Assembly (NCBI RefSeq): GCF_042453785.1
Contig: NC_091663.1
Coordinates: forward strand, 37,345,001 to 37,409,000
Reading direction: 5' to 3'
DNA length: 64,000 bases
Source: Malus domestica
Lineage: Eukaryota; Streptophyta; Magnoliopsida; Rosales; Rosaceae
Below the pieces are notes generated by a model, which did not search any database, was not told where the DNA came from, and worked only from the letters and a program-made list of their open reading frames with translations. Of the stretch, positions 16,560 through 56,480 are shown in pieces. A program made the translations under genes and the position numbers. Each line of letters starts with the position of its first letter. The first letter of the stretch is position 1.

Positions 16560-18420
16560 CACGGTCCTGTTACCTAATCTCTGAATGTTTTTTTTTTTGA
16601 GACTTTTTACACATGCTATCTCGGAGTATATACAAACATATTTGACTGTTAGATCGTTGCAACTAGTTTCATAGAATGCATATCCTATCGAATTGATAGA
16701 TTTAACAAACACTTAAGAGTTAATATTATACTTCCATTAAGTATAAAAAATTATCCATTAGTGTAAATATTTTAAATTGAAGATCGAATTTGTTCAATGC
16801 ATTCTTATAGGGTCGAGGAGTGTAGCTGTAAAAAATCATCAAAATCGGAGCTAAAATAATCGTTAAATTGTGATTTTTAGTTTATAACCGTCGAAAACTT
16901 TTGTTTTGTTACCTAATCTCTGAATGTTTCTTTTTTGTGATTTTTTAGGTATGCGATCTTGGAGTATATACAAACATATTTGACGGTTGGATCATTGAAA
17001 CTAGTTTCGTAGAATGCATATCCTATCAAATTGATAGATTTAACAAACACTTAAGAGTTAATGTTATACTTCCATTAAGTATAAAAAATTATCCATTAGT
17101 GTAAATATTTTAAATTGAAGATCGAATTTGTTCCATGCATTCTTATAGGGTCGAGGAGTGTAGTTGTAAAAAATCATCAAAATTGGAACTAAAATAACCG
17201 TTAAATTATGATTTTTCGTTTATAACCGTCGAAAACTTTTGTTCTGTTACCCAATCTCTGAATGTTTGTTTTTTGTGATTTTTTAGGTATGTGATCTCGG
17301 AGTATATACAAACATATTTGACGGTTGGATCGTTGAAACTAGTTTCGTAGAATGCATATCCTATCAAATTGATAGATTTAACAAATACTTAAGAGTTAAT
17401 GTTATACTTCCATTAAATATAAAAACTTATCCACTAGTGTAAATATTTTAAATTGAAGATCGAATTTGTTCAATACATTCTTATAGGGTCGAGGAGTGTA
17501 GCTGTAAAAAATCATCAAAATCGGAGCTAAAATAACCGTTAAATTGTGATTTTTCGTTTATAACCGTCGAAAACTTTTGTTCTGTTACCTAATCTCTGAG
17601 TGTTTGTTTTTTGTGATTTTTTAGGTATGCGATCTCAGAGTATATACAAATATATTTGACGGTTGCATCGTTGAAACTAGTTTCATAGAATGCATATCCT
17701 ATCAAATTGATAGATTTAACAAACACTTAAGAGTTAATGTTATACTTCCATTAAGTTTAAAATATGATTTATCCACTAGTGTAAATATTTTAAATTGAAG
17801 ATCGAATTCATTCATTGCATTCTTATAGGATCGAGGAGTGTAGCTGCAAAAAAATCATCAACATCGGAGCTAAAATAACCGTTAAATTGTGATTTTTCGT
17901 TTATAACCATCGAAAACTTTTGTTCCATTACCTAATCTCTGAATGTTTGTTTTTTACGATTTTTTACGTATGTGATCTTGGAGTGTGTACAAACAAGTTT
18001 GACGGTTGGATTGTTGAAAAACGTTTCATAGAATGCGTATCACATCAAAACGGTAGATTAAACCAACACTTAGAGTTAATATTATACTTGTATTAAGTAT
18101 AAAATAAGATTTTGTGGTATCAGCTAGTGTAAATATTTTAAATTGAAGATCAAATTCGTTCATTGCATTCTTATAGGGTCGAGGAGTGTAGCTGTAAAAA
18201 AAATCATCAAAACCGGAGCTAAAATAACCGTTAAATTGTGATTTTTTGTTTATAACCGTCGAAAACTTTTGTTCCGTTACCTAATCTCTGAACATTTGTT
18301 TTTTGTGATTTTTTACGTAAGTGATCTCGGAGTGTGTACAAACAAGTTTGACGGTTAGATCATTGAAAAAGGTTTCGTACAATGTGTATCACATCAAAAT
18401 TGAGGAGTGTAGCAAAATTG
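16560..18420 (+). repeat. ~340-bp tandem repeat array inside the CACTA element
   Basis: About five and a half copies of a unit of 338-345 bp. Each carries the order GTTACCTAATCTCTGA, then GATTTTTTAGGTATG, then ACGGTTGGATC, then AATGCATATCCTATC, then GTCGAGGAGTGTAGC, then GTTAAATTGTGATTTTTCG. Unit starts fall near 16568, 16908, 17246, 17584, 17928 and 18275. The first four units are the most alike; the later ones have drifted (GTGTGTACAAACAAG variants). Confidence 0.9.
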
Positions 18421-20995: not shown

Positions 20996-21592
20996 TGTTG
21001 GTATATGGTCCAGCCCATGATCAATGTTCTAGATTATTCTAGTAAGCAAGTGAGGTGGCTAGAGCATGCTAGACAATTTTAGCATGTTATTAAGTTGATG
21101 GAAGAAGCTAGAGAGTGCTAGCTTCCTTGGTTGCAAATGGAAAGATCTAGAAGCTACAATTTTGTGGCTAGTCTAGAATTATCTATGCTAGAGGTTTAAG
21201 AATACACTAGAAACTAGTAGAATGTCAAACCCTCACCTATAAATATGGGTGTGATGTTGTAGTGAAGTAACCAATTAAGAACCAAGTGTGAGTAGCAAAT
21301 GATCAAGTCCAAAGCTAAAGTTCCACTCCAAGAGTGAGAGTGAGAGTGTTCCACTACACATTGTGATTGAAGTTTAGAGTGATAGAAAGTGTGTGTCATA
21401 CTTTCTTGTATCCTCAAGCCTTGTCTTTGGCTTGGTAAGACTACTCTTGTTGTACTCATCTTTTTCATATAGTGAAGATTGATCATTGTTTCGTGGACGT
21501 AGGCATAAATTGTTGAACCACATAAATTCTTGGTGTCCATTTTCTACTTTACATTGTGCATTCTCTATCTTGTAGTACCGACATTCCTAACA
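20996..21592 (+). repeat. 5' LTR of the copia fossil
   Basis: 597 bp, TG...CA ended, immediately followed by the primer-binding site. It contains the repeated word CTAGA/TCTAG near its start and a TATAAATATGG box near 21238. Confidence 0.95.
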
Positions 21593-24500
21593 AGTGGTAT
21601 CAGAGCCAGGTTGGCTTGTACTACGAGATGAAAAAAAGTGGCACTATGATCAAACTCACCAACTCCAATTGGGTAACATGGAAGCCAAGGATGGAGGACA
21701 TTCTCTATTGTAAGGATCTGCATGAGCCAATTGAAGGAGATGCCGCTAAGCCTGAGAGCATGTCCGATGCCGAGTGGAAGAAGATGAATCGCAAGGCTAT
21801 TGGCACAATTAGACAATGGGTAGACAATAGTGTTTTTCACCATGTGTTTAATGAAACCAATGCCCGCGAGTTTTGGATGAAGCTTGAGTCCTTGTTCGAG
21901 AAGAAGACCCCAGCCAAGAAAGCCTTCTTAATCAAAGAGCGCATCAATGTGAAGTACAATGATGGTTTAAGTGTAGCAGAACACTTGAACAATTTACAAA
22001 ATATCATCAACCAGTTGGCTACTATGAAAATGATGATTGAGGACGAGCTGCAAGCGCTATTGCTACTTGGATCCTTGCCAGACAATTGGGAGACCTTTGT
22101 GGTGAGTATAAGTAACTCTGCTTCTAATGGTGTTCTTACTCTTGATAATGTTAAAAATAGCATGCTCAATGAAGAAACAAGGAAAAAGACTTCTGGCACA
22201 GATAGCAGCCAAGTATTTGTCACAGAGAACCGCGGAAGAAGTAAGAATAGAGGGCCTAGAGGTCATGGCAAGAGTCCTAGCCGATCCAACTCAAGGTTCA
22301 GGGGTGCATGCCACCATTGTGGCCTCATATGAAGAAAAATTGTCGAGTTTGGAAGAGAGAGCAAATGGAAGGAAACAATCAGAAGAAAGATGATACTGGC
22401 AATACCACCGCTGTCATATGTGGTGATGTACCAGAAATATTGTCTGTTGGTGAATGTCTGCATATGGGCAACTCTGACAAAGATATTGAATGGATCTTTG
22501 ACAATGGAGCTTCCTTCCATGCTACGTCCAAACGGGAGTTCTTCAGTACATACAAAGAAGGTGACTTTGGCATAGTGAAGATGGGGAATGAAAGCTATTC
22601 CAAAATTCTTGGAATTGGTGATATTTGCCTAAAAACTAATCTCGACTGCTAGTTGATGTTGAAATATGTGAGACATATTCCTGATATACGTCTCAATCTG
22701 ATATCCATCGGTACCCTTGATCGACAAGGTTATTATCACCATATTGGCGAAGGAAAATTGAAGCTTACTAAAGGCTTAATGGTGGTAGCAAGAGCACGAC
22801 TTTGTTGTACGTTGTACCGGTCAAATGCCAAGGTTTTGAAAGGTGAGTTGAATGTTGTGGATGACTCATCTCTAGACTTGTGGCATAAGAGGCTAGGCCA
22901 CATGAGCGAGAAAAGCCTACAAGTTTTGGCAAAGAAGTCTCACATTCTCTTTGCCAAATGTACGTCGTTAAACTCTTGTGAGCATTGTTTATTTGGAAAA
23001 CAAAGAAGAGTTAGTTTTTTCTGTTCCATCTACAAAGAAAGGAAATTTATTATATCTTGTTTATTCAGATGCGTGTGGTCCCATGGAAGTCGAGTCACTT
23101 GGAAGAAATAAATATTTTGTTACTTATATTGATGATGCTTCACGAAGGGTCTGGGTGTATTTGTTGAAATCCAAAGACAAGGTGTTTCAGACATTCAAGG
23201 AGTTTCATGCCATGGTGGAGAGGGAAATTGGGAAACCTCTCAAGTGCCTTCGTAGCGACAACGGTGGCGAGTACACATCTCACCAGTTTAGAGAGTATTG
23301 TGTGAAACATGGCATACGCCATGAGAAGACAGTTCCTGGAACTCCACAACATAACGGTGTTGCTGAAAGAATGAACCGAACCATCATGGAGAAAGTCATG
23401 TGTATGCTGAGGACTGCAAAGTTATCCAAAGCAATTCTGGTGTGAAGCTGTAAGGACAGCCTGCTATTTGATCAACTGATCTCCATCAGTACCATTAGGT
23501 CTTAATGTTCCAGAGAGAGTATGGACTGGTAATGATGTGTCTTACTCTCATCTGAAGTTGTTTGGTTGCAAAGCTTTTGTGCATGTGCCCAAAGAGCAGA
23601 GATCGAAGTTAGACTACAAAGCTACACCGTGTATCTTTCTTAGTTATAGCGGTGAAGATTTTGGTTATAGATTATGAGACCCATACTAAAAGAAGTTTAT
23701 CAGAAGTAGAGATGTGATCTTTTATGAAGACCAAACAATTAGAGATTCGAGTAAAGAGGCACAACTAAATGATGCAGTCAGAAGAGTTGATCCATTAGCT
23801 TCAGATGAAGAAAGTCACGGTGATATCCCTGAAGCAGCTGTCAATGAAGTGCCTGCAGAACCAGATAATGTTGATCAGATGGAGCCTAATCAAGATGTGT
23901 CAGACCATGAGATTGCTGATCAGGGAGAGCCTAGTCAAGAAGAGCAGATTCAAGGAGAACCTAATCAGGGGGAGCCTCCAGCCCTGCAAAAGAATTAAGA
24001 TCAGGTCAGAAGATCCAGCAGAAGTCAAATACCGTCTACCAAGTATTCTTCGTCAGAGTTTATCATGTTGACTAATTATGGAGAGCCTGAAACTTATGAG
24101 GAGGCCAGAGCCCATAACGACAGTGATAAATGGAGTCAGAGATGGATTCCTTATTAAAGAATGATACCTATGAGCTGATGGAGCTTCCAAAGGGCAGAAA
24201 AGAGTTGAAAAACAAGTAGGTGTTCAAATTGAAAAGGGACGACAACATGACAAGGTACAAAGCTCGTTTGGTTGTCAAAGGTTTTGGTCAAAAGAAAAGA
24301 GTTGACTTTGATGAGATTTTCTCACCGGTGGTGAAGATGACTTCCATTCGAGTTATCCTTGGTATGGCAGTAAGCATGGATCTTGAGCTCAAGCAGTTAG
24401 ACGTTAAAACTGCATTTCTCCACGGCAACTTAGAAGATGAGATATACATGGAGCAACCCAAAGGCTTTGAAGTCAAAGGTAAAGAAAATTTGGTATGCAA

Positions 24501-25670
24501 GCTCAAGAAAAGCTTATATGGTTTTAAGTAGGCTCCGAGACAGTGGAATAAGAAGTTCAACTCATTCATGGTGAGTAATGGGTACAAGAGAACTCATGCT
24601 GACTCTTGTGTCTATATCAACAATTTTCTGGAGGTAAATTCATCATTTTATTGCTTTATGTTGATGACATGTTAATTGTCGGTCAAGATGCTTCTATGAT
24701 TAAAAAGCTCAAGGAAGAGTTATCTAAGTCCTTTGACATGAAGGACTAAAGGCCAGCCAAGTAGATTTTGGGCATGGAGATAATTCGTGATAGAAAATCC
24801 AAGAAGTTGTGGTTGTCACAAGAAAAGTATGTTGAACGGGTGCTTGAAAGGTTCAACATGAAAGCAGCGAAATCAGTAAGCTCACCTTTAGCCAATCATA
24901 TCAAGTTTAGCAAAGAGTCGTGTCCAAAAACATATGAAGAAAAGGAGAAAATGGCAGTTGTTTCCTACTCTTCAGCAGTAGGAAGTATCATGTATGCAAT
25001 GGTGTGCACACGGCCAAATATTGCTCATGCAGTAGGTGTGGTGAGCAGGTTTCTCTCTAATCCAGGGAAGGACTACTAGGAAGCTGTTAAGTGGATTCTC
25101 ATATATTTGAAGGGGACTTCTAAGATGTGCTTGTGCTTTGACAATTCCAAACCAATCTTGGAAGGATTTACAAATGCTAACATGGAAGGTGACCTGGATG
25201 GTAGAAAATCTACGTCTGGGTACTTGTTTACTTTTGCAAGGGGAGCCGTGTCTTGTCAATCTAAGTTGCAAAAATGTGTTGCTTTGTCCACAACCGAGGC
25301 TGAATACATAGCCGCTACAGAAGCATGCAAAGAGTTGTTGTGGTTGAAGAGGTTTCTCCAAGAGTTGGGTTTGAAGCAAAGTGATTATGGCGTTTATTGT
25401 GATAGTCAAAGTGCTCTGGATTTGAGCAAGAACACTACATATCATTCACACACTAAGCACATTGATATTCGTTATCACTGGATTAAAGATGCTATCGAGT
25501 ACAAGTTGCTACAGCTGAAGAAGATTCATATCGATAATAATTCTTCAGACATGTTGACAAAGGTAGTCACAAAATCAAAGTTGGAATTCTGCATTAAGGC
25601 TACTGGGATGGACTCCAGGTAACTTGGAGTCATGATCGGAATTCCTCCCTCATGGACTGGAGGGGGAGAT

Positions 25671-26990: not shown

Positions 26991-28874
26991 ATGGCGAATG
27001 CATTCTTCTCCTTCACACCCTTTGATTTTGGAGTCCTCGGCGGCGGCAGTGGTTTGACTTCCCAGCTGGAAAATTATGAGAAGGAAGATCAGGAGCTCAA
27101 GGGGAAGCCAGACCATTTGTTTGGGATAGAAGAATTAGGGCTGGGAGAGATGGAAAAGTTATCTCATTTGTCCAAAGATCAACAACAATCCAAGGCAAGT
27201 TATTTGATGTTGGATAATTTCAGTTTCGATACAGGTTGTTCCGAACATGATCTCCAACGTTCCAGCAGCAAGTGCGAGAAAGCACGATCTCATGTTTCCA
27301 AAGATCACGACCACCGCCACTACCAACAACAAAATCAACATTACCAACAACCATCCAAGTCAAATTACTCCGATTGGGATAATTTCACCTTTGATTCTGC
27401 CTTCCCATCCACGCAACCAATCCAGGACGCGACAAATGAGCTCACGTACAGCCAAATAGGAGAATCAGACATTGCGGAGACCAACAAGCAAATGCCCCAT
27501 CAGTCTTCCTTAGCTGTGTTGGAGCTCCTAAACAACTACGGCAGTGCGTTCAAGAATCTGAGGGGAGACAGATTAAGCAACAGATGCAATGAAGCTGAAG
27601 CCTCCTCGTTTTCGATCCAACAAAAATTGTCAACCGAGGAGATCATGAGGGTTGCCGGAGCAAGGTATGTGCAATTCTCTAATCAAGGATATGGCGATTT
27701 TTTCATGCCTTTGCACCCGTTTGGCTACGCGCTTTCGGGTCTATCTGAAGAAGAAACGAAAGATGTGGAGCTTGCTCACATCTTTTTAGCTGCAGCAGAG
27801 AAGGTAGGCTACCAACAATTTGAGCGCGCAAACCGCCTGCTTCTTCGTTGCGAATTTGCTGCCTCCTTCAAAGTCAACCCTGTCCAGAGGGTTGTTTTCT
27901 ATTTTGCCAAGGCGCTTCGTGAGAGGATCGACAAGGAAACGGGGAACAGCATGTATAAGGGGAATGAAATGTCTACTTATAGTAATGGACTAAGCACAAA
28001 CCTTACAACTCTTGCATTCTACCAAGATACCCCTTTTCATTCAGTTATGCAGTACCCAGGAATCCAAGTAATACTCGAAAGCGTAGTCTTGGAAAGCAAG
28101 GTTCATTTGATTGATCTCGAAATCAGAAGCGGAGTGCACTGGTCAGGGCTGATGGAAGTGCTTGTAGGGCGCGAGGAGTGCCCCATTGAGCTCCTTACAA
28201 TAACTGCAGTGGGAGTGACGGGCAAGCAGAAGATCGAGGAGACAGGAAGGAGGCTGGCAAGCGTCGCAGAGGCCTTGAACTTACCCTTTCAATTCAAGGC
28301 AGTGATTGTGACAGACATGGAAGATGTCAAGGACCAATTGTTTGATGTCAAGGATGACGAAGCTGTGGTGGTTTACGCGCCTTTAATACTAAGGACAATG
28401 ATTTCGAGGTCAAGTTGCTTGGAAAATCTGATGAGGGTGGTGAGAAATCTCACCCCTTGTGTAATAGTGGTGATTGAGGTGGAGGCCAACCACAATTCAC
28501 CGTCATTTGTGAACCGATTCATCGATGCGCTGTTTTATTACAGTGCATTTTTCGACTGCCTAGAGACTTGCGTGAAGCAGGAGAAGAACAGAGTGCTGAT
28601 GGAGGAGTTGTTACATGAGGGAATACGAAACATTGTGGTGGCGGAGGGGAGTGAAAGGGTTGTGAGAAGCGTGACGATGGAGGTGTGGAGAGCCTTCTTT
28701 GCAAGGTTTAGAATGGTGGAAATCAACTTAAGTAATGCAGCTTTGTACCAAGCTAGGTTGGTGGCTAAAAAGTTTGGAAGCCCTCCTTGCACACTTGATA
28801 GGAATGGGAAATGTCTTATTGTTGGGTGGAAAGGAACCCCAATCCATTCACTTTCGGCTTGGAAGTTTACTTGA
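26991..28874 (+). CDS. GRAS-family transcriptional regulator (copy B, intact)
   Basis: Intronless gene for a 627-residue protein. Residues 1 to about 175 form a variable, low-complexity N terminus (MANAFFSFTPFDFG start; QQQ/HYQQQ tract near 105-120). It lacks the DELLA and TVHYNP motifs, so it is not a true gibberellin-responsive DELLA even though databases often label such proteins RGL1-like. The GRAS domain follows: leucine-rich region I from about 176 (LELLNNYGSAF), the VHIID core as VHLIDLE at about 372, leucine-rich II and PFYRE-type regions, and a C-terminal SAW motif (HSLSAWKF). GRAS proteins are nuclear co-regulators that work through partner transcription factors. The start is chosen because the N terminus is conserved with the pseudogene at 12882. 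The exact subfamily is not resolved. Confidence 0.93.
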   Translation: MANAFFSFTPFDFGVLGGGSGLTSQLENYEKEDQELKGKPDHLFGIEELGLGEMEKLSHLSKDQQQSKASYLMLDNFSFDTGCSEHDLQRSSSKCEKARSHVSKDHDHRHYQQQNQHYQQPSKSNYSDWDNFTFDSAFPSTQPIQDATNELTYSQIGESDIAETNKQMPHQSSLAVLELLNNYGSAFKNLRGDRLSNRCNEAEASSFSIQQKLSTEEIMRVAGARYVQFSNQGYGDFFMPLHPFGYALSGLSEEETKDVELAHIFLAAAEKVGYQQFERANRLLLRCEFAASFKVNPVQRVVFYFAKALRERIDKETGNSMYKGNEMSTYSNGLSTNLTTLAFYQDTPFHSVMQYPGIQVILESVVLESKVHLIDLEIRSGVHWSGLMEVLVGREECPIELLTITAVGVTGKQKIEETGRRLASVAEALNLPFQFKAVIVTDMEDVKDQLFDVKDDEAVVVYAPLILRTMISRSSCLENLMRVVRNLTPCVIVVIEVEANHNSPSFVNRFIDALFYYSAFFDCLETCVKQEKNRVLMEELLHEGIRNIVVAEGSERVVRSVTMEVWRAFFARFRMVEINLSNAALYQARLVAKKFGSPPCTLDRNGKCLIVGWKGTPIHSLSAWKFT

Positions 28875-35720: not shown

Positions 35721-38509
35721 TTACTGCAGCAAATGAAAATACAGCAATTCATTCCACATATCAGGAACGCCAGGAAGACACCAATGGCTGCAATCCTGAA
35801 CCCCTGAAGCATAAGAATTACCATAGACAGATGGATGACCATCTACTCTATATTCTGACAAGCCAGTTATGTTCAACAAAGTCACACGAGTCTTCATCTG
35901 CTTAACGACCTGCTCTGCAATTATGTTTCTCTCGTCTGCAATTCGCAAAAGTTCGAGGAGGGGTTCAGTAGCTTCTGTACAGCTCCCGCCTGTATTCCAT
36001 TGACCTCCCCTGTTCAATGAAGAATTACAAATTAAACACTCTGCGATGCAACTAGTTATATGAAGTTTATATGTGCAGGCAGCATGATCGAAGACAGGAG
36101 GAAATGCAAGTTAACCTGAAATGCGTGGGTGATAAACTTCGAAAGAAAACTCGGGTTTTACGCGGATTGATGTTTTTATCAACCCATGACCCCCAGGTCA
36201 TCATAGCTTTTCTGAGAGCTGTGGAAACATCAAGGTGTGGATGGATTTTGCCACCTTCCTGGTAGAAATTCATCCTGCAAGCTCCAAATTAAGGTCAGGA
36301 TATTGCGGTTGATGAAATTCAAGTTAATTAACTATAGCATGTATCACTTGCACAAATTCTGTGACTAGACTGACCCAGCATTAGTTTTGTGATCATTCCA
36401 CCAATGTCCGGTGTCAAATATCAAAATATCAGCTCCTCTCCACCTTGATGAAGCACGATCAATTGCATCGATTTGCAAGGTCTGCACCTGCCTCTGCCCT
36501 ACTCTTGCTATGCCTTTGTCAACCAAGAAAGGGGACGTATAAAATTCGACTGTACACTTGTAATCCTGTGACAAATTGAACTACTTCAGGTAATGAAATA
36601 CAAATACGCATGTTAAGGAGTAAATAATGTTGAAGAAGAATAATACCACAAAGGTGAAAGTATATCCCCTCTTTCCTTTGGTGACTCTGAGCCCTCTTAT
36701 AGCTCCCATTAGCATGCAAACCATGGATTGGCATTGATTCCTATTGAGTGAATCCCCCACGAAAACGAGCCTTTTCCCTCTCATCAGTTCCAGCATTTTC
36801 CTTGCATTGAACCTTGGAATGCCACAATCTTCTGGTTGCCACCTCCACTTCATGAAATCTGTGTCTAATCTCCCATTACCTTCACAATTAAAACCTTTTT
36901 CGATGAAAGAACAAGAACGATATGTGTACAAAGGATAGCTGTTGTTATCTTTGATCCACCTCCCTTTTGTACTATAATCACATGATCCCCCTAATTTTGT
37001 TATGCTCATGTCTTCTTCGACCAGCAGCCCGCCGCTACTGGAAATTTGAGAAGTTTGATCAAGTGAAGTTGTTCTGGTCTTCTTCTTCGTTTTCTTCCTT
37101 CCAACCATCCTTTTCCTACTTTTGTCTGCTTCAATCCTGTCTTCAGTCTCGTTCATCAAGTGTGCATTTTGTTGCTCTTCAGTCTTTTTCATCGATGGCA
37201 TTGGCGTGGCTTCCTCTTCAATCTTCTTGTCACTCAATGCAGCATTTTTCTCTTCAACCTCATTCAACAATGGTGCATTTTTCTCTTCTGTCGCTCTCAT
37301 CGCTGGCCGTTGTTTCTCTTCAATCTTGTTCTCATTCAATGCAGCATTTTGCTCTTCAGTCTCGTTCAATGATAGCGTTTGCTCTTCAGTCTCGTTCTTC
37401 AGTTGCACATTATTCTCTTCACTCTTGTTCAACAACGGCGCATTTTTCCCTTCAGTCTTGTTCATCAGTGTCGTGTCCTGCACTTCAAACTTGTTTACGC
37501 TTAACGAAGCATTTTTCTCTTCAACCTCGTTCAACAAAGTCGCATTTTTCTCTTCAATCTCTTTCATCACAGGCCATTGTTGCTCTTCAATCTTTTTTTC
37601 GCTCAATTCAGCATTTTGGTCTTCAGTCTTGTTTAACAACGGCATATTTTGCTCAACAGTCCCGTTCAGCAACGATGCAGTATTTCCTTCAGTCTTGTCC
37701 AACAATGGCGCATTTTTATCTTCAGTCTCTTTCATTAATGGCCATTGTTGCTCTTCAACCTTGCTTTCGCTCAACGTAGCATTTTGCTCTTCAACCTCGT
37801 TCAACAATTGCACATTTTTCTCTTCAGTCTCATTCGTCAGTGGCCATTGTTGCCGTTCAATCTGTTTTTCACTCAATGCAGCATTTTGCTCTTCAGTCTC
37901 ATTCGTCAATGGAACATTTTTCCCTTTAACCCCATTCGTCAATGCGGCATTTTGCTCTTCGGACTTGTTCCATGGTGTAATATTTTGCTCCACAGCCACA
38001 GCTGCTGCACTTTGTTCCTCTGTTTTGAGCTCGTTACCATCTAATTCACCACCACCTCTGTCTTGTTCATCATCATCTGTCTCATTCTCCTTCCTCTGCA
38101 TCCCGCTAACAAGTGAATTAGTCCCAGAAAAGCTAGAAGCATTTTCAGGTGCACTCAAAGGGTTAGCCGCCAACTTCAAGGTTGAATCTTTCGGAGGAAG
38201 ACTATCATCTGACGTAACTGCAGAAATATTGCTATTTGAATTACCAGTAGTCAAATTAGTCTCAGCAGATGATGGAACAGGTGGAACAACAGCAGCTATG
38301 AAACTCGAAACGGGTGAGGATGTAGTGTTGAACCGGAGACATCTGCTGGTTTCTTGAACCGGCAATGAATTGGGAGGAGCGGTTTTGTTAACCCAAATGA
38401 TAACGAAAGAGAGAAAGAAGATAGAAAAAGGGATGCTAAAATAAAACACCAACGGTCTAGTTATTCTAGTGGCTGATGATTTAGATGAGAAACTCAGCTG
38501 CCTCTTCAT
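35721..38509 (-). CDS. TRICHOME BIREFRINGENCE-LIKE protein with sequon-repeat stem (TBL gene 1)
   Basis: Four exons in minus order: 38509-36647, 36565-36375, 36274-36116, 36009-35721; they encode about 833 residues. It is a predicted type II Golgi membrane protein: short cytosolic N terminus, one membrane segment at about 22-45 ([20 protein letters not shown]), and a stem of about 450 residues. The catalytic region has a PMR5N domain ([10 protein letters not shown]...[12 protein letters not shown]), the GDS motif ([11 protein letters not shown]) and the DxxH motif (DCSHWCLPG). Known TBL proteins are O-acetyltransferases of wall polysaccharides; the substrate here is unknown. The stem is a tandem array of roughly 11-residue units such as [12 protein letters not shown], most with an N-x-T sequon. 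Unlike its neighbours it has no intron between the CGIPR and FNAR codons: the sequence is joined exactly where the other copies splice. Confidence 0.9.
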
Positions 38510-39419
38510 GACTACTACTTCTAGGTTTTGTAGTTCTGCTCGCCTAATCCCTCATTTCCCTCGCTGCTGTCGTTAAAAAATGAAAAATAAATACTCTTCT
38601 TGAAGAAGAAGAACACAATTCATCAGAAGAAGTAGCAAGACATGTGCAGCATACTTGCAGAAAGCAGTCTTTGGATATTCATGTATTTTGGACCATTTGT
38701 TCCATGCAATTGCTGGTTGAATTCTAACCACTTATGAATTTTCTACAAACAACTTGGAGAATGTTGAGGCGTTCGTATTCCACGAAAATGAAAATAAAAA
38801 CGATAAAAATATACCAAAAAACAAAAGAGATATATGCAGTAGAACATTAAGGTTGTGGTCCGAACTTCTCATGGTCTAGTGGGCGAATGCAGCACAATCC
38901 CTAATTTGTAACTTAGCTACCCTTTTGTTTTTCGTTTTGATTTCTTTCGATAATGTTTTCATTGCTAATTAATCAGAAGCTCTAAGGAAAGGGCACATTG
39001 ATCTTGCTCTTAACGAGGGTTATACGTACTCAAATCAGAGTCTAAGGAGAATCAAAGCTTCTTGTCGATTCCTTCTTTTTTTTTTACACTAGTTCTTTAC
39101 TTCTTTCCAAAGCATTCAATTTCATCATGTGCTTTCATAACGCAAATTTCTTGACGGATGTTTGCGAAATTGGTTACTACTGATTGTTCTTCTCAAACTT
39201 GGAGACGTTTGCTTCCATTGTCAAGCTTTCAGGCTTTAACTTTGATCAGTTCGTTTGATAATCGTTTTAATTTTTAGTTTTTAAAGTGTGCTCTTTTTAC
39301 TTTTCTCATAAAAACATGTACAGTCAAGAAATTTTCACTCGCATTTCTAGGTGGCCAAAATGTGATTTATTTTTTGTTATCATATAACAGAGTGACCAAA
39401 TATACTCGGTGTATTTTGG
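38510..39419. other. Gap between TBL gene 1 promoter and the TBL fusion gene 3' end
   Basis: About 900 bp, AT-rich. It should contain the promoter of TBL gene 1 (minus strand). No repeat or gene is recognised. Confidence 0.45.
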
Positions 39420-42400
39420 TCATGAGTCACTGAGCAAATGCAGAAACAACAATTCATTCCAGGCATCAGGCAGGCCAGGAAGACACCAATGGCTGCAGTC
39501 TTTGATGGCTGTTGGATGAGCATCTATTCTATATTCTGACAGGCTTGTTATGTTCAACAATGTCACATGAGTTTTCATCTGCTTTACGACCTCCTCTAGG
39601 ACTACATCTTTCTTGTTTGCCATTCCTGAAGGTTTGGGGAGGGGTTCAGTAGCTCCTATACAACTCCGGCTCAATTTCCACTCACCTCCGCTGTTCAATG
39701 AAGAATTACAAATTAGAGAACTATGTACTCAGAAAATCATCATAACGTGCACAAGTTGATTGACGTCGCCACACAAATATAAATCATGGAGCAGGATAGA
39801 TAGTGTACTTGTATTGACTGCTTCATGAACTCGTATTAACCATAAGAACGTACACATAATATTCCAGGAGGCAAAACTAATTACCTGAAATGCGTTGGTG
39901 ATGAAGTTCGAAAGAAAACTTGGGTTTGGTGTGGATTGATACTTTTATCAACCCATGCTGCCCAGGTCATCAAACCTTTTCTGAGAGCTGTGTGAACATC
40001 AAGATATGGATGAATTTTTCCCCCTTCCTGGTAAAAATTCTTCCTGCATGCCTTCATTTGTTAGCTCCAAATTATGTATTTTTCTTTGATCGAACATCAA
40101 CAAGCATGGTATACGTAGCTACTACTACTCATTATCGAACTCACCCAGAGTTAGTTTTGGAATCGGTCCACCAATGTTCAGTGTCGAATACCAAAATATC
40201 AGCTCCTCTCCATCTAGATGAACCCTGATCAATGGCATCAATTCGCAAGGACGTTTGCACCTGCTTCTGCCCTACTCTTTTTGTGCCTTTCTCAACCAAG
40301 AAAACGGATGGAGAAAACTCGACTGTAAACTTGTAATCCTGTGCGAAATTTGCAGCATCAGAAATTTAATACATATGGAAAACAACTTGAAAGAGATAAT
40401 TGGGCATGAGACTCTGAATTTGGCCTGAACTAGATTTCTAGTCCAAAGACCTAAGATCCAATTTGGCCAAATTCAGGGACTAGCTAGTGCTCCAATTTTC
40501 TCTAACCTGAAACGAAATGATCGACAATGTAGAGAGAAAGAATTACCACAAAGTAAAAACTGTAAGTCCCCTTGGCATGGGAGATTCTGGGCCTATTGGG
40601 ATCTCTTATATCTCCCATTAGCATGCACACCATGGATTCAAATTGATTTCTGTTGATTGAATCCCCCACATAAAGTAGTCGTTTACCTCTCATCAGTTCC
40701 AGCATTTTTGTTGCATTGAACCTATATATAGATACATCGCACACCAAAATTAAACATAGTAAGTTGAGATTAATCATTGATGTAGGAACACATTAGCAAG
40801 ATGAAATCTGGCATGAATAGTGATTATGCAGTGAATTGTGTATTTTGAGTCTGCCCTTCCAGTACTACGTCAACCATTGTCGAAATGCAATAACTATGTA
40901 CATTAATGGAAAACAAATTCGATACCAAGTTTTGAAGAAGGAAATAATTAATTAGCTTGGCCTATGTACTTACCTTGGAATTTCACAATCTTGTGGTTGC
41001 CACCTCCACTTGGTGAAGTTTTTATCTATTCTCCCACTGCCTTGACAATCAAAACCTTCATAAATGAAGGGACAGGATCGACGTGTGTACAACGGATAGC
41101 TTTCATCATAGACCCACCTCCCTCTTGTACTAAAATCACATCCTCCTAATTTTGTTGTTCTCTTCTTGTTTTCTTCAATGTCTTGCATCCCGCCGCTACT
41201 TGAAATTTGAGTAGTACTACTCTTTTGATCAAATGATGTTGCTATGCTCTTCTTCTTCTTCCTCTTTCCCGCCATCCTCTTTTTTATCGGTTTTTCAACC
41301 AATACAGCGTTTTTCTCGTCAGTAGTCTTGTTCATCAATGTTGGAGGGTTTTGCTCTTGATCAGCCTTATTCATCAATATTGGAGCATTTTGGACTACAC
41401 TCTCCCTCTCAATCTTGTTCATCAATGCAGCAGTTTGCTCTTGATCAGTCCTGTTTTCCGATATTGGCGCACTTTGCTCTTGATCGGTCTTGTTCATTAA
41501 TGACGTCGGTTCATTTTGCTCTTTTGTCATGTTCACCAACGGAACATTGTGGTTCTCAATCTTGTCAAATAAGGTTGCAGCTGGTGCACTTTGAGCAGGG
41601 ACTATCGTGACGTTAGTAAAAATGTCTGACTCACTGGCGCCTCCGTCTTCATTTTTGACATGTAAATCATTTTGTGCGCCCACTGCTTGGGATACCCTCA
41701 AATGAAGATATAACAATTCATTCCATACATCAGGAATGCCAGGAAGGCACCAATGGCTGCAATCTCTGATGTCGGATGGATGAGCATCCATTCGATACTC
41801 CGACAAGCTCGTTGTGTTCAACAAAGTGACTCGAGTCTTCATCTGCCTTAGGACCTCCTCTACAATTACATCTTTCTCGTTTACAATTCCTGAAGGTTGG
41901 AGGAGGGGCTCACTAACTCCTACACAACTCTGCCGTAAATTCCATTTTCCTCCGCTGTGATCAATCAACAATTTTACAAATTAACCACTCATTAATAAAT
42001 TGTCATGTAAGAACACCAATACACGTACTACTTCAATCAACATTAAATAATTAGATAACCTGAAGTGCGTTGGCGATGAAGTTCGAAAGAAAACTTGAGT
42101 TTTTCTTGGATTGATGTAATTATCAACCCATGATGCCCACGTCATCAAACCCTTTCTGAGAGCTGTGAGAACATCAAGATATGGATGAATTTTTTCACCT
42201 TCCTGGAAGAAATTAACCCTGCAAATGCAATGCATGCAGTCATAAGTACTTAAGCTCCAAATGTCAGGATAATCCCAATTAAGAAATTTAATTTAATTAT
42301 CAGACACAATTAAAACGATCGAGTTAACATAGCTCAGTTGTTCTAAGGGGTGGGTACAACTAAAAGTCATTCATATATTATTGGAGCTTACCCGGCATTA

Positions 42401-45400
42401 GTTTTGAATTCGACCCACCAATGTTCGGTGTTGAATACCAAAATATCAGCTTCTCTCCATCGATGTGAACCGTGATCAATGGAATCAATTCGCAAGGACG
42501 TTTGCTCCTGCTTCTGGTCTACTCTTGTCATGACTTGTTCAACCAAGAAAACGGACGGATAGAATTCAACTTTACACTGGTAATCCTGTGAAAAAAAAAG
42601 TACGTACATCAGAAATTTAAATACATACAACATTCTAAATATTTATTAACCTTAAATGAAACAGCAATGTAAATATAGCAATACAGCATAGAGAAGAGAA
42701 GAATATACAAAGAAGGGAAAGTGAAATATTTTCCGCACATTCATTTTCCGTTCTTCACACACTAGTTTATTTTGTCCCTTGATTATCCTCTAATTTATTC
42801 AATCCAAGTGTCAGAAATAAACATGGGAGTGCATGGGGAGAAAATAGGTTTGCGGGAATCAATTCCCTGTGAAGAATTACCACAAAGACGACACTATAGC
42901 TTCCTCTCTTTCTGATGAATCTGGGCTTATTTGGATTTCTTTTATCTCCGACAAGCATGCACACCATAGATTGCCATTGATTCTTATTGATTGAATCGCC
43001 CACAAACACTAGCCTCTTCCCTCTGATAAATTCTAGCATTTTTCTTGCGTCGAACCTATACATGCATACATAATTAAAATCCCAATTAGCTAGCTAGCTT
43101 AATCAAATTGAAATAGTGATGAAGAACTAATTAGAAGGTTACCTTGGAATGTCACAATCTTGTGGTTGCCATCTCCACTTAGTGAAGTTTTTGTCTAATC
43201 TCCCATTACAACTAAAACCTTCTTCTATGAACGGACATGAACGACTTGTGTACAACGGATAGCTCTCGTCTTCGACCCACCTCCCTCTTGTACTAAAATC
43301 ACATCCTCCTAATTTAGCTATTTTCTTGTCTTCTTCGACCAACAGCGGTCCGCTACTTGAAATTTGAGTCATCTGATCAAATGAAGTTGCTCTGGCCTTC
43401 TTCTTCTTTCTACTCTTAGCTTGAACCGTTTTTTCACTCAATGCAGCTGCATTTTGCTCGTCCGTCTTGTTCATCAAAATTGGAGCATTTTGCTCTTCAG
43501 TCTTGTTCATCAACGGTGCATTTTGCTCCTCGGTTGTGTTTGCCAACGGCGCAGTTTGCTCTTCATGAGTGCGGTTCAATGGAGCATTTTGCTCTACAGT
43601 CGTGTTCAAGGATGGAACATTTTGGTCTTCATGAGTATTTGTCTCAATCTTGTCAATTAAGATTGCAGCTGATGGAATTTGTTGTGCCGGCACTGCTGTG
43701 AAGTTACTATCAATAATAATATCAGACTCGCTGGCGCCTCCGTCTTCATTTTTGACATGTAAATCATTTTGTGCGCCCACTGCTTGGGATACCCTCAAAT
43801 GAAGATATAACAATTCATTCCATACATCAGGAATGCCAGGAAGGCACCAATGGCTGCAATCTCTGATGTCGGATGGATGAGCATCCATTCGATACTCTGA
43901 CAAGCTCGTTGTGTTCAACAAAGTGACTCGAGTCTTCATCTGCTTTAGGACCTCCTCTACAATTACATCTTTCTCGTTTACAATTCCTGAAGGTTGGAGG
44001 AGGGGCTCACTAACTCCTACACAACTCTGCCGTAAATTCCATTTTCCTCCTCTGTGATCAATCAACAATTTTACAAATTAACCACTCATTAATAAATTGT
44101 CATGTAAGAACACCAATACACGTACTACTTCGATCAACATTAAATAATTAGATAACCTGAAGTGCGTTGGCGATGAAGTTCGAAAGAAAACTTGAGTTTT
44201 TCTTGGATTGATGTAATTATCAACCCATGATGCCCACGTCATCAAACCCTTTCTGAGAGCTGTGAGAACATCAAGATATGGATGAATTTTTTCACCTTCC
44301 TGGAAGAAATTAACCCTGCAAATGCAATGCATGCAGTCATAAGTACTTAAGCTCCAAATGTCAGGATAATCCCAATTAAGAAATTTAATTTAATTATCAG
44401 ACACAATTAAAACGATCGAGTTAACATAGCTCAGTTGTTCTAAGGGGTGGGCACAACTAAAAGTCATTCATATATTAGTGGAGCTTACCCGGCATTAGTT
44501 TTGAATTCGACCCACCAATGTTCGGTGTTGAATACCAAAATATCAGCTTCTCTCCATCGATGTGAACCGTGATCAATGGAATCAATTCGCAAGGACGTTT
44601 GCTCCTGCTTCTGGTCTACTCTTGTCATGACTTTTTCAACCAAGAAAACGGACGGATAGAATTCAACTTTACACTGGTAATCCTGTGAAAAAAAGAAAGT
44701 ACGTACATCAGAAATTTAAATACATACAACATTCTAAATATTTATTAACCTTAAATGAAACGGCAATGTAAATATAGCAATACAGCATAGAGAAGAGAAG
44801 AATATACAAAGAAGGGAAAGTGAAATATTTTCCGCACATTCATTTTCCCGTTCTTCACACACTTGTTTAATTTGTCCCTTGATTATCCTCTAATTTATTC
44901 AATCCAAGTGTCAGAAATAAACATGGGAGTGCATGGGGGGAAAATAGGTTTGCGGGAATCAATTCCCTGTGAAGAATTACCACAAAGACGACACTATAGC
45001 CTCCTCTCTTTCTGATGAATCTGGGCTTATTTGGATTTCTTTTATCTCCGACAAGCATGCACACCATAGATTGCCATTGATTCTTATTGATTGAATCGCC
45101 CACAAACACTAGCCTCTTCCCTCTGATAAATTCAAGCATTTTTCTTGCGTCGAACCTATACATGCATACATAATTAATTAAAATCCCAATTAGCTAGCTA
45201 GCTTAATCAAATTGAAATACATAATTAAAATCCCAATTAGCTAACTAGCTTAATCAAATTGAATAGTGATGAAGAACTAATTAGAAAGTTACCTTGGAAT
45301 GTCACAATCTTGTGGTTGCCATCTCCACATTGTGAAGTTTTTGTCTAATCTCCCATTACAACTAAAACCTTCTTCTATGAACGGACATGAACGACTTGTG

Positions 45401-46383
45401 TACAACGGATAGCTCTCGTCTTCAACCCACCTCCCTCTTGTACTAAAATCACATCCTCCTAATTTAGCTATTTTCTTGTCTTCTTCGACCAACAGCGGTC
45501 CGCTACTTGAAATTTGAGTCATCTGATCAAATGAAGTTGCTCTGGCCTTCTTCTTCTTTCTACTCTTAGCTTGAACCGTTTTTTCACTCAATGCAGCTGC
45601 ATTTTGCTCTTCCGTCTTGTTCATCAAAATTGGAGCATTTTGCTCTTCAGTCTTGTTCATCAACGGTGCATTTTGCTCCTCGGTTGTGTTTGCCAACGGC
45701 GCAGTTTGCTCTTCATGAGTGCGGTTCAATGGAGCATTTTGCTCTACAGTCGTGTTCACCGATGGAACATTTTGGTCGTCATGAGTATTTGTCTCAATCT
45801 TGTCAATTAAGATTGCAGCTGGTGGAATTTGTTGTGCCGGCACTGCTGTGAAGTTACTATCAAAAATAATATCTAACTCACGGCTGCCGCTGTCTTCTTC
45901 TTCTTCTTCTTCTTCTTCTTCTTCTTCTTCTTCGTCATGTAACTCATGTTGCAGTACTGCCACTGCTTGGGCTTCGTTCTCAAAATAGCTAGAAGAAGCA
46001 TTTTCAGGTGTACTGGAAGGGGTGTCCGTCAACTTCAAGACTGATAAATCTTTCGAAGGACTATTTTCTGTAACGGAAACATTATTTTTATCGATAAAAT
46101 CATCTCCGGTAGTTAAATTAGTTGGATGATCAGCAGCTGGAAGAGGTGGAACTGTGGCGGCTAAGGGTGATGGTGTGAAACCGAAAACGATGGAGGATGT
46201 GTTGAAATACTCGAGACAATTGGTGGTTGGTTGGGCGGGCAATGGAATGTTGGAAGGAGAGGATATGTTGACCCAAATGAGAACGAAAGAGAGAAAGATG
46301 ATAGAGGAAGCGATGCTAAAATAAAAAACTAAGGATGTAGTTGGTAATGTAATGGAAAAAATGCTCAGCTGCGGCCTCTTCAT
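39420..46383 (-). CDS. Three-module TRICHOME BIREFRINGENCE-LIKE fusion gene
   Basis: Thirteen exons in minus order: 46383-45293, 45155-44981, 44682-44489, 44315-44157, 44051-43143, 43055-42881, 42585-42392, 42218-42060, 41954-40974, 40721-40547, 40338-40145, 40043-39885, 39690-39420. All phases agree, giving about 1,611 residues with a single stop. Module 1 (to about 625) has the start codon, one membrane segment (about 16-38), a poly-Glu run, a sequon-rich stem, PMR5[12 protein letters not shown] and DCSHWCLPG. In exon 5 (44051-43143) the C terminus of module 1 ([13 protein letters not shown]) continues without stop into the stem and PMR5N of module 2. Exon 9 (41954-40974) does the same for modules 2 and 3. 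All three modules keep GDS and DxxH. Modules 1 and 2 are almost identical, introns included; module 3 is more diverged. It could be one Golgi protein with three acyltransferase modules. Alternatives are an assembly error, or shorter transcripts from internal promoters. Confidence 0.8.
40974..41954 (-). other. Fusion exon joining TBL modules 2 and 3
   Basis: Same architecture as 43143-44051, with the same junction words [13 protein letters not shown] near 41695. The stem downstream differs (MNKTDQEQ-type units) and ends QDCEIPR. 981 bp, open throughout. The shared junction means the fusion arose once and was then copied. Confidence 0.88.
41960..45290. repeat. ~2.1-kb tandem duplication of a TBL module
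   Basis: 42060-43060 and 44157-45160 are nearly identical, introns included, with an offset of about 2,097 bp. The offset grows to about 2,150 bp near the donor end because of small indels, including a repeated 50-bp piece at 45170-45260. Intron identity shows that the duplication is recent. Confidence 0.9.
43143..44051 (-). other. Fusion exon joining TBL modules 1 and 2
   Basis: The exon opens with acceptor CACAG and [11 protein letters not shown], the normal start of a last TBL exon, and carries DCSHWCLPG near 43847-43861. It passes the place where the neighbours end (HLLQ or HLLSDS plus stop) as [13 protein letters not shown] near 43790, and runs on through a sequon-rich stem to QDCDIPR at a normal exon-1 donor. 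909 bp, open throughout, correct phase at both ends. Confidence 0.88.
45891..45935. repeat. (TTC)n microsatellite coding a poly-Glu run
   Basis: About 14 CTT/TTC repeats lie in exon 1 of the TBL fusion gene. On the coding strand they give a run of glutamates in the stem. Modules 2 and 3 lack it because their stems start downstream of this point. Confidence 0.9.
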
Positions 46384-48334
46384 AACTAAACGTACGTACT
46401 CTCCTCAGCTTTTTTCTTCAATGGAGAAAAGGAGTCAATGGGAAGGAGGTCTTCAGTGAGATTTCGTAGGTGTCTGTCTGTGTGTGTTTGATCAATGTCC
46501 CTACTAGCTATAGAGGAAGACACAAATAATTCAGAAAAAAAATTCTTCTAGTATGCTGAGTTGCTGAATGTGAGTTGTTCATGAAAAACCATCTCGTCAC
46601 TTGAGTTGTAAAAGACGTTAGGCGCAAATTGGGTGGCAGACTGGAGCCTAGCGCCTAGGTGACTAGGTGGCCTAGACGGATTTAAATAAACTTATTATAT
46701 GTCAAATAAATAATTATGTTGGGATACATAAATTGAAAAATAGAATGAAATATATATTAGAAAGTATTAGAACATATTGAAAACATGGGGAATTAGAATA
46801 CAATGAGTGTTCATCGAAGTATTTAACAAGTATCTTACAATTTATTTATAAAAAATGCAAAATAAAAGTTATGTATTTTATATCTTAGTGAGAGTGACGA
46901 CCTAAGTGGGTGCCTAGGGGGGTTGCTAAACGGGTCTAGTTTGATGCTTAAGTAAGTCTAAGTACCATTTTTTAATTTTCAAATACATAAGAATTAATCG
47001 GAATTGTAGCCGGCCGTCTAGCGCTGTTATATGTAAGAAGGGCTTGGGATTTAGAGATAGCGTTGTAGGTAAGGTAAGGTAAGGTATTGGCTATAGCGGA
47101 TGAGGTGCGAGTGTTGTTGCGTGCATTGGAATGTTGTGGCATGCATGAAATGGCTTCTTTTGGCGCCATTTCTCTTGACGTTGGTGAATAGTGAAAGGAA
47201 CACGTCCGTCTGCATGTTGGAGTTGGACCATTTGTCCCATATGTGACCACTTGTTAATTAACCACAGACGACATAGAATATATTTTCTACAAGGCATTTT
47301 CATCCTCACAAAATTAAAAAAGGAAGAACTAAAAGACATAATTGTATAGTTAAAAACAATTCGGAAGGAAGAATTAAAAGACATAATTGTATAGTTACAA
47401 ACAACTCAGAGTAAATTTTTGTATGAAATTTATGTTCACTATTAGAATATGAGCACCAAACGCAAGTTCAATTTGTAATTTATGTTCACTACTACTATGT
47501 GAACATCGAACACAAACTCAATTCATAACAGAAGAAAGATTATCAATATTACTGCCAAAGCAAAACTTTTTTTTCGATGTGAAACAACTCTCAATATCCA
47601 TAACCACGGCTCCACCGTTCACAAATAAATAGGTTGAAAAATGAATTGAATTAGATTGAAATTTCTATCCTCGATGGAGTCGGTGTTTGTGTTGGGAATA
47701 ATATCAATATTCACCACGAGATGTATGGATCATAACCCTATTGTCTAATGTTTTATGGACAAAAACATTGAGCATGCCGGAATTTGGGAGTGATCTGGTG
47801 GCCCAAGGGAGCAACACCAACACCTAGTCTGTAGTTTAGTGAATTATTATTTTGTTTATTGTTTTGTTTGATGCCCATTTCTATTCATGGGCACGTAGAA
47901 TGTTCAACTCTGACAAAACTGAACGACAAGGGCATGTAAGGCGGAATTTAAGATATGATTTGTCATTTGATTTGGAGAATGAACCCGTCAACATGTACTC
48001 CTATTTTTATCCTTCTCATACAAACTTTTTCGCATGCAATCAATATTTAGTCCAGTGGAAATACGGTAGAATTCTAAGTCAGATTTGCTCTCTGATCTTA
48101 AATTCGAGGCATGAAGCTAGCAAAAACACTGATGATTCCCTGGTTAAAAGCCTTAAAAAGACGTGCAATTTGAATGTGGTTAGGTGACCAAAATTTCATT
48201 TTTTCATAAATATTTGACGCGTGTTAAAATGATGATATAAGAAAATTTATTCGTACTTAGAGTATAGTAGTTAGAATAACTTTATTAAACAAGGGCAGTA
48301 AAAGCCCAAAACAACTTTTAGGTAAAAGTCCAGC
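46384..48334. other. Intergenic, with one MITE-like patch
   Basis: It includes the promoter side of the TBL fusion gene. At about 46617-46970 an AT-rich core is flanked by GCCTAGG-rich ends in opposite orientation (GCGCCTAGGTG...; GGGTGCCTAGGGGGG), which looks like a degenerate MITE. A 111-codon open frame at 47852-48187 resembles nothing I know and is not called as a gene. Confidence 0.4.
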
Positions 48335-49272: not shown

Positions 49273-51372
49273 TTACTGCAGCAAATGAAGAAACAACAAT
49301 TCATTCCATGCATCAGGAATGCCAGGAAGACACCAATGACTGCAGTCTTGAATCCCCGACTTTCTAGAATTTCTTCCATATATAGACGGATGACCATCGA
49401 TTCTGTATTCGGACAAGCCGGTTATGTTCAAGAATTTCACAGGAGTTCTCATCTGCTTTATGACCTCTTCTGCAATTGTATTCTTCTCAGAGTAAGAAGA
49501 GCTCGAAGTTTGGAGGGGTTGGGTTGCTTCCTTACAACTCCCACCCGAATTCCATTGACCTCCCCTGTTCAATGAGTTATAAATTAATCAGCAACTGACT
49601 TGCACAAGTTTAGCATTGCTGCAATTTGAACACAAGCTAACCTGAAATGGGATGGTGCTGAACTTCGAAAGAAAACTTGGGTTTTGCGATTGAAGTGTTT
49701 ATCAACCCATGATCCCCAAGTCATCAAAGCTTTTCTGAAAGCCGCGGAAACATCAAGCTGCGGATGAATTTGGCCCGCTTCCTGGTAGTAATTAATCCTG
49801 TTACAAGATTCAAAGATCAGGTTTCCCATTCAAGATACTTAATAGATGTATCACTTGCATACTGTAAACATGTCATTTTTCAGTTTTAACCCATCATCAG
49901 ATTTCAAGACGAGTACAATCTCCCAACAACGAGCATGGTACCCTAGATCCTGAAAAGCTTGATAATAGTTCGGTAATGGAACTGACCCGGCTTTAGTTTT
50001 GTAATGGGTCCACCAATGAGCAGTGTTGAATACCAAAATATTAGCTCCTCTCCATCTAGATGATCCATGATCGATGGAATCAATTCGCAAGGTTTGCACC
50101 CGCTTCTGACCTACTCTTCCCTTGCCTTCATGAACCAAGAAATGGGACGCATAATATTCAACTGTGCACTTGTAATCCTATATAAAGAACACTACTTCAG
50201 AAACAAAACACATAATAATAACCTGCAAATTAAACAGCAGAGAACAATCTGAAGAATTACCACAAATTTGAAACTGTAATTCCCCTTCTCTTTGGTTATT
50301 CTACGCCTATGCGTCTCATAGACCCTAGTTGGATCTCTTACAGCTGACATCAACATGCACATCATGGATTCCCATTGATTCCTATTGATCGAATCCCCCA
50401 CGAAAACTAGTCTTTTCCCTCTCATCAATTCCAGCATTTTCGTAGCATTGAACCTAGGGCACGTGCAAGCATACACTACTTCAACAATCATGATTGCAGT
50501 TTATCTAACTACATTGTTATGTCCAGGCCAAAATACCAAAGCTTAAACAATCAATTCATCGTATATTTCTCGGGAAAAAAAAAATTGCTTTTCTTTCAAG
50601 TAAATTAAAGGACTGGAGATAGAAACTACCTTGGAATGTCACAATCTTGCGGTTGCCACCTCCACTTCATGTAGTCTTTATCTTTTCTCCCATTGGCCTG
50701 ACAATTAAAACCTTCATCTATCAAAGGACAGGACACATTTGTGTACAGAGGATAGCTCTCATCATATACCCACCTCCCTCTTGTAAAATCACACCCTCTC
50801 ACTCTCTTCTCTTCAACCACTCCATCACTTGAAATTTCAATCTTTTTCAGTGCAGCATTTTGCCCTCCAGTCCTATTCAATTCGGCATTTTGCCCTCCAG
50901 TCCTATTTAATTCAGCATTTTTCCCTCCAGTCCTATTCAATTCAGCATTTGGCTCTTCAGTACTCTCAATCTTCAGAAACAGGATTGCCGGAGCACTTTT
51001 CTCCATCGATGTGAAGTTACCATTTAGCCCACCGCCTGCTCCGTCTTCGTGTTCTGCAACTTGGGATTCGTTCTTCTTCTTCTGCAAATCAACTGTAAGT
51101 GAAGCCCCAGAAAACCCAGATGCATTTTCCGGTTTACTCAAATGGGCACCTTCCAAGATCGAATCTTTCAGAGCATTTACTGATAAATTTCCACTGAAGT
51201 CGGTCATAGTCTGAATAGCTACGGACGGGAAGTGGGTTTCTTGGGGGATTGAAGGGGTGGATTTAGTAAGCCAGATGGTAAAGAAAGTGAGAAAGATTAG
51301 AGATGAAGAGATGGTGAAAGAAAACACCAAGAATCTGGTGGGTTTGAAAGAGAAACTTCTCTGCCTTTCCAT
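49273..51372 (-). CDS. TRICHOME BIREFRINGENCE-LIKE protein (TBL gene 3)
   Basis: Five exons in minus order: 51372-50630, 50453-50261, 50177-49987, 49797-49642, 49564-49273; about 524 residues, all phases consistent. N-terminal membrane anchor at about 14-36 ([20 protein letters not shown]), and a short stem with four copies of a 10-residue unit, [10 protein letters not shown], each with an NRT sequon (50860-50960). PMR5N domain ([10 protein letters not shown]...[12 protein letters not shown]), GDS ([15 protein letters not shown]), a HWW region and DxxH (DCSHWCLPG). This is the usual family length and intron layout, so it is the best local reference for the ancestral single-module gene. Exon 2 has about six extra residues (RVYETHRR region), also known in the TBR branch. 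Likely a Golgi polysaccharide O-acetyltransferase; substrate not predictable. Confidence 0.93.
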
Positions 51373-55836: not shown

Positions 55837-55860
55837 AACAATAATACGTGCGAGGAAAAG

Positions 55861-56472
55861 ATGAGGGAAAGAAAAATAATACATAGAAAATCATGAATCC
55901 AGAAAGTAATATCAGAAAATGAATGGAAATGAGATCAAGAATTTGTTACAGTCAATCAAATTTTTTTTGTTTCTCCGGTGTTTGCATCGGGAAGTGATAA
56001 ATCGGGTAAAGAATAAGATCGAAATTAGCAAAGACATTTTTCCTAATAAGGTGAGGATGTCCTCATTAGATGGGCAGGTCTACAAATATTCTTAGACGTA
56101 GCCTAACATCATGAAGGTTTGAGCAACTGATTACAACATCATTAAGCTCTTCCGTTCGTGGTAAAGATGAGGAAAAGAAAAATAATACATAGAAAATCAT
56201 GAATCCAAAAAGTAATATCAGAAAATGAATGGAAATGAGATCAAGAATTTGTTACAGTCAATCAAATTTTTTTTGTTTCTCCGGTGTTTGCATCGGGAAG
56301 TGATAAATCGGGTAAAGAATAAGATCGAAATTAGCAAAGACATTTTTCCTAATAAGGTGAGGATGTCCTCATTAGATGGGCAGGTCTACAAATATTCTTA
56401 GACGCAGCCTAACATCATGAAGGTTTGAGCAACTGATTACAACATCATTAAGCTCTTCCGTTCGTGGTAAAG
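55861..56472 (+). repeat. 306-bp tandem duplication (two copies)
   Basis: Two adjacent copies with a period of 306 bp, e.g. GAAAAATAATACATAG at 55871 and 56177, ending at TTCCGTTCGTGG.. near 56166 and 56468. Only a handful of differences are seen (CCAGAAAG/CCAAAAAG, ACGTAGCC/ACGCAGCC). Recent and non-coding. Confidence 0.92.
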
Positions 56473-56480
56473 AAGAAAAA

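Follow-up and report, generated by a model that had tools for sequence, protein, structure and literature searches.

A TBL gene on the minus strand of the Malus domestica DNA analysed here (a 64-kb stretch, the window) carries three complete TBL modules in a single open frame, and this is a real and unusual architecture within the TBL family. We propose that it probably represents a real, recently fused member of a tandem TBL cluster, and that its product would be one type II Golgi membrane protein in which three wall-polysaccharide O-acetyltransferase modules are strung on long linkers that are hydrophilic and rich in sequons. Its features, and those of the two single-module TBL genes that flank it (A and C), are collected in Table 1; T1, T2 and T3 denote modules 1, 2 and 3.

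Table 1. Coordinates of the triple-module TBL gene, its parts and its neighbours in the window.
Feature	Position	Strand	Basis or use
Triple-module TBL gene, entire coding region, ATG to stop	39420..46383	-	spliced frame, Pfam
Exon 1, carries start codon, membrane anchor, stem rich in sequons and module 1 PMR5N	45293..46383	-	
Exon 2, carries module 1 GDS	44981..45155	-	
Exon 3	44489..44682	-	
Exon 4	44157..44315	-	
Exon 5, fusion exon: module 1 DxxH end, linker 1-2, module 2 PMR5N	43143..44051	-	
Exon 6, carries module 2 GDS	42881..43055	-	
Exon 7	42392..42585	-	
Exon 8	42060..42218	-	
Exon 9, fusion exon: module 2 DxxH end, linker 2-3, module 3 PMR5N	40974..41954	-	
Exon 10, carries module 3 GDS	40547..40721	-	
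Exon 11	40145..40338	-	
Exon 12	39885..40043	-	
Exon 13, module 3 DxxH and stop	39420..39690	-	
Only strongly hydrophobic segment, residues 18-38	46270..46332	-	hydropathy
Polybasic stretch before module 1 PMR5N, KSRKKKKAR	45541..45567	-	
Polybasic stretch before module 2 PMR5N, KSRKKKKAR	43391..43417	-	
Polybasic stretch before module 3 PMR5N, different 12-residue sequence	41249..41284	-	
Linker 1-2, 162 residues, 6 N-X-S/T sequons	43310..43795	-	
Linker 2-3, 184 residues, 5 N-X-S/T sequons	41147..41698	-	
Duplicated unit copy 1 as compared, module 1 stem to linker 1-2 start	43718..45861	-	
Second copy of the duplicated unit (compared extent), from linker 1-2 to linker 2-3 start	41621..43711	-	
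Neighbour C, single-module TBL, 5 exons, 524 aa	49273..51372	-	comparator
Neighbour A, single-module TBL, 4 exons, 833 aa, long repeat stem	35721..38509	-	comparator

Read from 46383 to 39420, the gene splices into 13 exons with a 4,836-base coding sequence, which translates into 1,611 residues followed by one terminal stop. All 12 introns are bounded by GT-AG and measure 87 to 298 bases, and the exon-entry phases 2,0,2,2 recur module by module. No internal stop, frameshift or lost splice site was found in the 4,836 coding bases and 12 introns checked. Thus, the single open 13-exon frame with 12 phase-matched introns described by the first-pass annotation was borne out, as were its two stop-free fusion exons, 43,143-44,051 (exon 5) and 40,974-41,954 (exon 9), each of which doubles as the final exon of one module and the opening exon of the next. 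Module 1 intron 1 (45156-45292) is 137 bases long versus 87 in the module 2 copy, the additional 50 bases being mainly an internal repeat. An AATAAA hexamer lies 49 bases 3' of the stop.

We scanned the 1,611-residue product with Pfam, the domain search proposed by the first-pass annotation, and obtained PMR5N (PF14416) and PC-Esterase (PF13839) three times each with scores above the cut-offs; scanned separately, each of the three modules gave one PMR5N and then one PC-Esterase. GDS lies at residues 383, 862 and 1365 and DCSH at residues 604, 1083 and 1586, and a fourth DxxH string (DTEH, residue 1456) is away from the catalytic place. A weaker match to NXPE4_C (35.8 bits, best at 1337-1390, no single stretch passing) overlaps module 3 and most likely reflects cross-matching of a related fold. 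In structure matching, ESK1/XOAT1 (6CCI) was the sole solved relative returned for either module searched, with E 2.3e-61 for module 1 and 8.5e-64 for module 3. ESK1 (TBL29) shows the same PMR5N and then PC-Esterase, the same GDS and DxxH motifs and an N-terminal anchor, but it has one module, whereas the triple gene places three in one chain, separated by linkers of 162 and 184 residues.

Alignment with 6CCI located counterparts of the catalytic triad Ser216, Asp462 and His465 (the GDS serine and the DxxH aspartate and histidine) in all three modules. The same is true of Asp215, Asn220 and His437, which contribute to the XOAT1 active site according to a passage of PMC9487903. The residue next to Asn220 is Lys in modules 1 and 2 and Arg in ESK1 and module 3. 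Each module also keeps the eight cysteines of the compared ESK1 region (8/8), a likeness judged by alignment position. Pfam, motif positions and the 6CCI alignment therefore all recovered the three PMR5N-GDS-DxxH modules noticed at first pass. Identity between the modules and ESK1 is only 38–39% over the compared region, from which ESK1 residues 440-452 are absent, so xylan is not to be assumed as the substrate.

What would bring modules 2 and 3 into the Golgi lumen? Hydropathy of the triple protein peaks at residues 18-38 (best 19-residue mean 2.44) and reaches a maximum of 1.10 beyond residue 60. No strongly hydrophobic segment was detected by hydropathy in either linker, nor one that could serve modules 2 or 3. 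This agrees with the single N-terminal anchor proposed earlier, one segment for the whole chain. Because the hydrophobic stretch is limited to residues 18-38, modules 2 and 3 themselves lack an evident entry signal; they would enter the Golgi lumen solely through their fusion to the module 1 anchor. Hydrophobic residues (ILMFVWYC) make up 21–22% of the linkers versus 35–38% of the modules, and N-X-S/T sequons number 3.7 (linker 1-2) and 2.7 (linker 2-3) per 100 residues versus 0.6–0.9 in the modules.

What might such a chain do? TBL enzymes are described in a passage of PMC11360243 as acting by double displacement with an acetyl-serine intermediate. By analogy with the family, each module would load acetyl on its GDS serine and pass it to a polysaccharide hydroxyl in the manner of XOAT1. 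The tethered trimer suggested at first pass stands as regards its one anchor, three complete modules and one open frame, but processive action found no support, since independent sites on tethers would offer no more than local clustering or dosage. Any advantage would lie in dosage together with local clustering of three sites per chain, not in strict processivity. We also considered the modules as three diverged activities and rejected the idea because modules 1 and 2 have almost the same sequence.

Alternatively, the triple chain could be delivered by one anchor and then cut at the polybasic run before each PMR5N, releasing single-module enzymes. A polybasic run does stand ahead of every module in hydrophilic, sequon-rich surroundings, and there is precedent in plant pectin methylesterases, which are processed at basic sites in the secretory pathway. 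However, single-module neighbour A has a similar basic run, so the run is not tied to the fusion, and neighbour C is without one; we consider cleavage of this kind improbable. Judging from sequence, we suggest only tentatively that the gene provides either a natural three-site enzyme, Golgi-anchored and with its sites on flexible, glycosylated tethers, that clusters acetyl groups along one polymer, unlike single-module TBLs, or a plant polyprotein cut into three enzymes. In a passage of PMC11360243, the fit of xylan to cellulose is proposed to depend critically on even spacing of its acetyl groups. With two near-identical sites and one diverged site per chain, the triple protein would let clustering be tested across one, two and three modules.

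One module per protein is the usual form of the TBL (DUF231) family, although not a strictly defining one; the triple gene has three modules, and neighbours A and C have one each. Consistent with the earlier remark that no triple-module TBL had been described, no doubled or tripled TBL was found in open-licence PMC text among the matches listed. Protein databases may well include TBL entries with several modules. Oversized TBL annotations from cotton and potato (PMC11217346, PMC12884326, PMC10050746) likewise exceed the usual length or exon number, and the passages concerned give sizes and exons and are silent on repeated modules. Among them are a cotton range of up to '1,422 aa/99.13 kDa', a mutually inconsistent pair of values, potato StTBL30 with 846 residues and 15 exons, and GbTBL139 with 16 exons, said to carry a DAP2 domain. 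In passages on rose and Eucalyptus, the longest TBLs are given as 630 and 520 residues, respectively. The PC-Esterase fusions of Anantharaman and Aravind 2010 (PMC2824669) also combine PC-Esterase with further domains in one secreted protein, but the partners named in the passages concerned are different (10TM acyltransferase, ATP-grasp, EGF and filamin-like domains), and the strings 'tandem' and 'duplicat' are absent from the main text. When we searched prokaryote and viral contigs for relatives of module 3, 34 and 7 pattern matches, respectively, were returned and none was confirmed; being non-plant, these collections are uninformative on orthologues.

How did three modules come to share one frame? 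Neighbour C has the exon phases found in each module of the triple gene, and in both neighbours the stem bears sequons and the core is 66–70% identical to the modules in amino acids. They differ in having one module each, with the stop codon coming two residues beyond the conserved HL end; past the corresponding end of modules 1 and 2, by contrast, the reading frame stays open and, about 7 bases on, enters DNA that resembles the module 1 exon-1 stem (shared CCCAAGCAGTGG, by eye). Both linkers open with identical DNA immediately after the last TBL residues, and in protein alignment the linkers match the exon-1 stems of T1, C and A. They look like exon-1 stems cut downstream of the anchor and deprived of the start codon.

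The stems themselves vary. In neighbour A, where intron 1 is missing and exons 1 and 2 form one exon, a stem of about 465 residues separates the anchor from PMR5N, and 33-base repeats with many N-X-S/T sequons account for much of its length. Shorter arrays of similar 33- or 30-base stem repeats are present in the triple gene (45599-45781 and 43449-43631) and in neighbour C (50846-50961). Across the cluster, stems thus seem to be longer or shorter according to repeat number.

In a protein tree with ESK1 (6CCI) as outgroup, T1, T2 and T3 were split from A and C with an ultrafast bootstrap of 99, and the same split was obtained in a DNA tree without 6CCI (ultrafast bootstrap 93). T1, T2 and T3 also have in common a one-residue insertion and a deletion, of eight residues versus A and nine versus C. 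Within the triple gene, the coding DNA of module 1 and that of module 2 are 98.8% identical (17 of 1,431 bases different; unit size 2.1 kb), and module 3 has 74% amino-acid identity to them. Core dS is 0.02 for T1-T2 and 0.48 for T1-T3; on sequence divergence, the module 3 split is older than the split between modules 1 and 2. Linker 1-2 is a mosaic, module-3-type through GASESD and module-1-type thereafter, with a switch near 43,720, which matches the expectation for a crossover between stems.

We infer a two-step history: (i) an illegitimate, in-frame deletion between two adjacent TBL genes would have fused one of them, broken in its last exon shortly ahead of the stop, to the middle of exon 1 of the next, removing the stop, the intergenic DNA, the promoter, the start and the anchor while keeping the frame; and (ii) later, an unequal crossover between two similar stems would have duplicated module 1 to give module 2. 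Such a locus would document a readable route from a tandem array to a multi-domain enzyme.

Is the fused frame under selection? Between copies 1 and 2, the 1,431 coding bases show no indel and the 660 intronic bases four gap events (Fisher p 0.010), a contrast that is flattered by the position of some of the intron gaps, which by eye fall within base runs or next to a local repeat. Exons and introns of the two copies have diverged by substitution at the same rate (8 of 660 aligned intronic bases different, p 1.0); an apparent stronger constraint on exons (17/659, p 0.025) was obtained with a misaligned intron 1 and was discarded after realignment. dN/dS between the two copies is 0.29 (8 synonymous and 9 nonsynonymous changes, p 0.012), but without three changes that lie at the edge of the crossover p rises to 0.18. 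In simulations, a neutral copy 2 kept its frame open in 3.5% of cases (15% when the indel rate was halved), and in 0.12% two neutral copies were both open; with substitutions alone, a neutral copy stayed open in 64%. Signs of selection after the fusion thus appear thin.

These values bear on the possibility that the fusion is young and functionless, either because the locus is silent or because of premature transcript ends or faulty splicing, with module 1 alone or nothing being made. With copies 1 and 2 just 1.2% apart, an open frame demands little selection if indels are rare, as the substitution-only simulations illustrate, and the equal exon and intron substitution rates fit this reading as well. 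Moreover, five of the six AATAAA hexamers in 39,000-46,600 are intronic, so early transcript ends are possible. The absence of coding indels in the face of four intronic ones argues the other way, as does module 3, which is fully open despite missing its own start and anchor. dN/dS among T1/T2, T3, A and C, including module 3 versus the other four modules, is 0.30–0.41, although most of the time covered may lie before the fusion. On balance we give little credence to a functionless locus and favour a real fusion gene that encodes the triple protein.

Could the tandem instead have been created by the assembly, with two haplotypes or array copies set in tandem where there is truly a double-module gene or separate genes? 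The 1.2% between copies 1 and 2 is within the range of allelic difference, and the window contains a second, very young tandem duplication at 55857-56473, where a 306-base unit occurs twice at 99%. Yet a false haplotype tandem alone yields no in-frame chimeric junction such as that of the mosaic linker 1-2, the 2-3 fusion is independent of the repeat, and there is not one N in the 64 kb; we regard an artefact as very improbable. Separate genes with their own promoters inside the fusion exons are unlikely because the modules abut, with no intergenic DNA and no second anchor; no TATA-like hexamer was found in 43,100-44,100 or 40,900-42,000, and promoters need not have one.

Elsewhere in the window, we noted a pair of GRAS-family genes, 26991-28868 (+) and 12810-14727 (+), one of which is a single frame with a complete GRAS domain match; in the other the domain is split over two frames and the gene is probably broken. 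Pieces of a Copia-type LTR retroelement lie between them (21526-25619, +), with gag and integrase frames identified by Pfam and a frame at 25080-25619 that resembles, by eye only, the RNase H end of a Copia-type element. Finally, 16567-18368 consists of a satellite-like array in which a 338-base unit is repeated 5.3 times at 91%.
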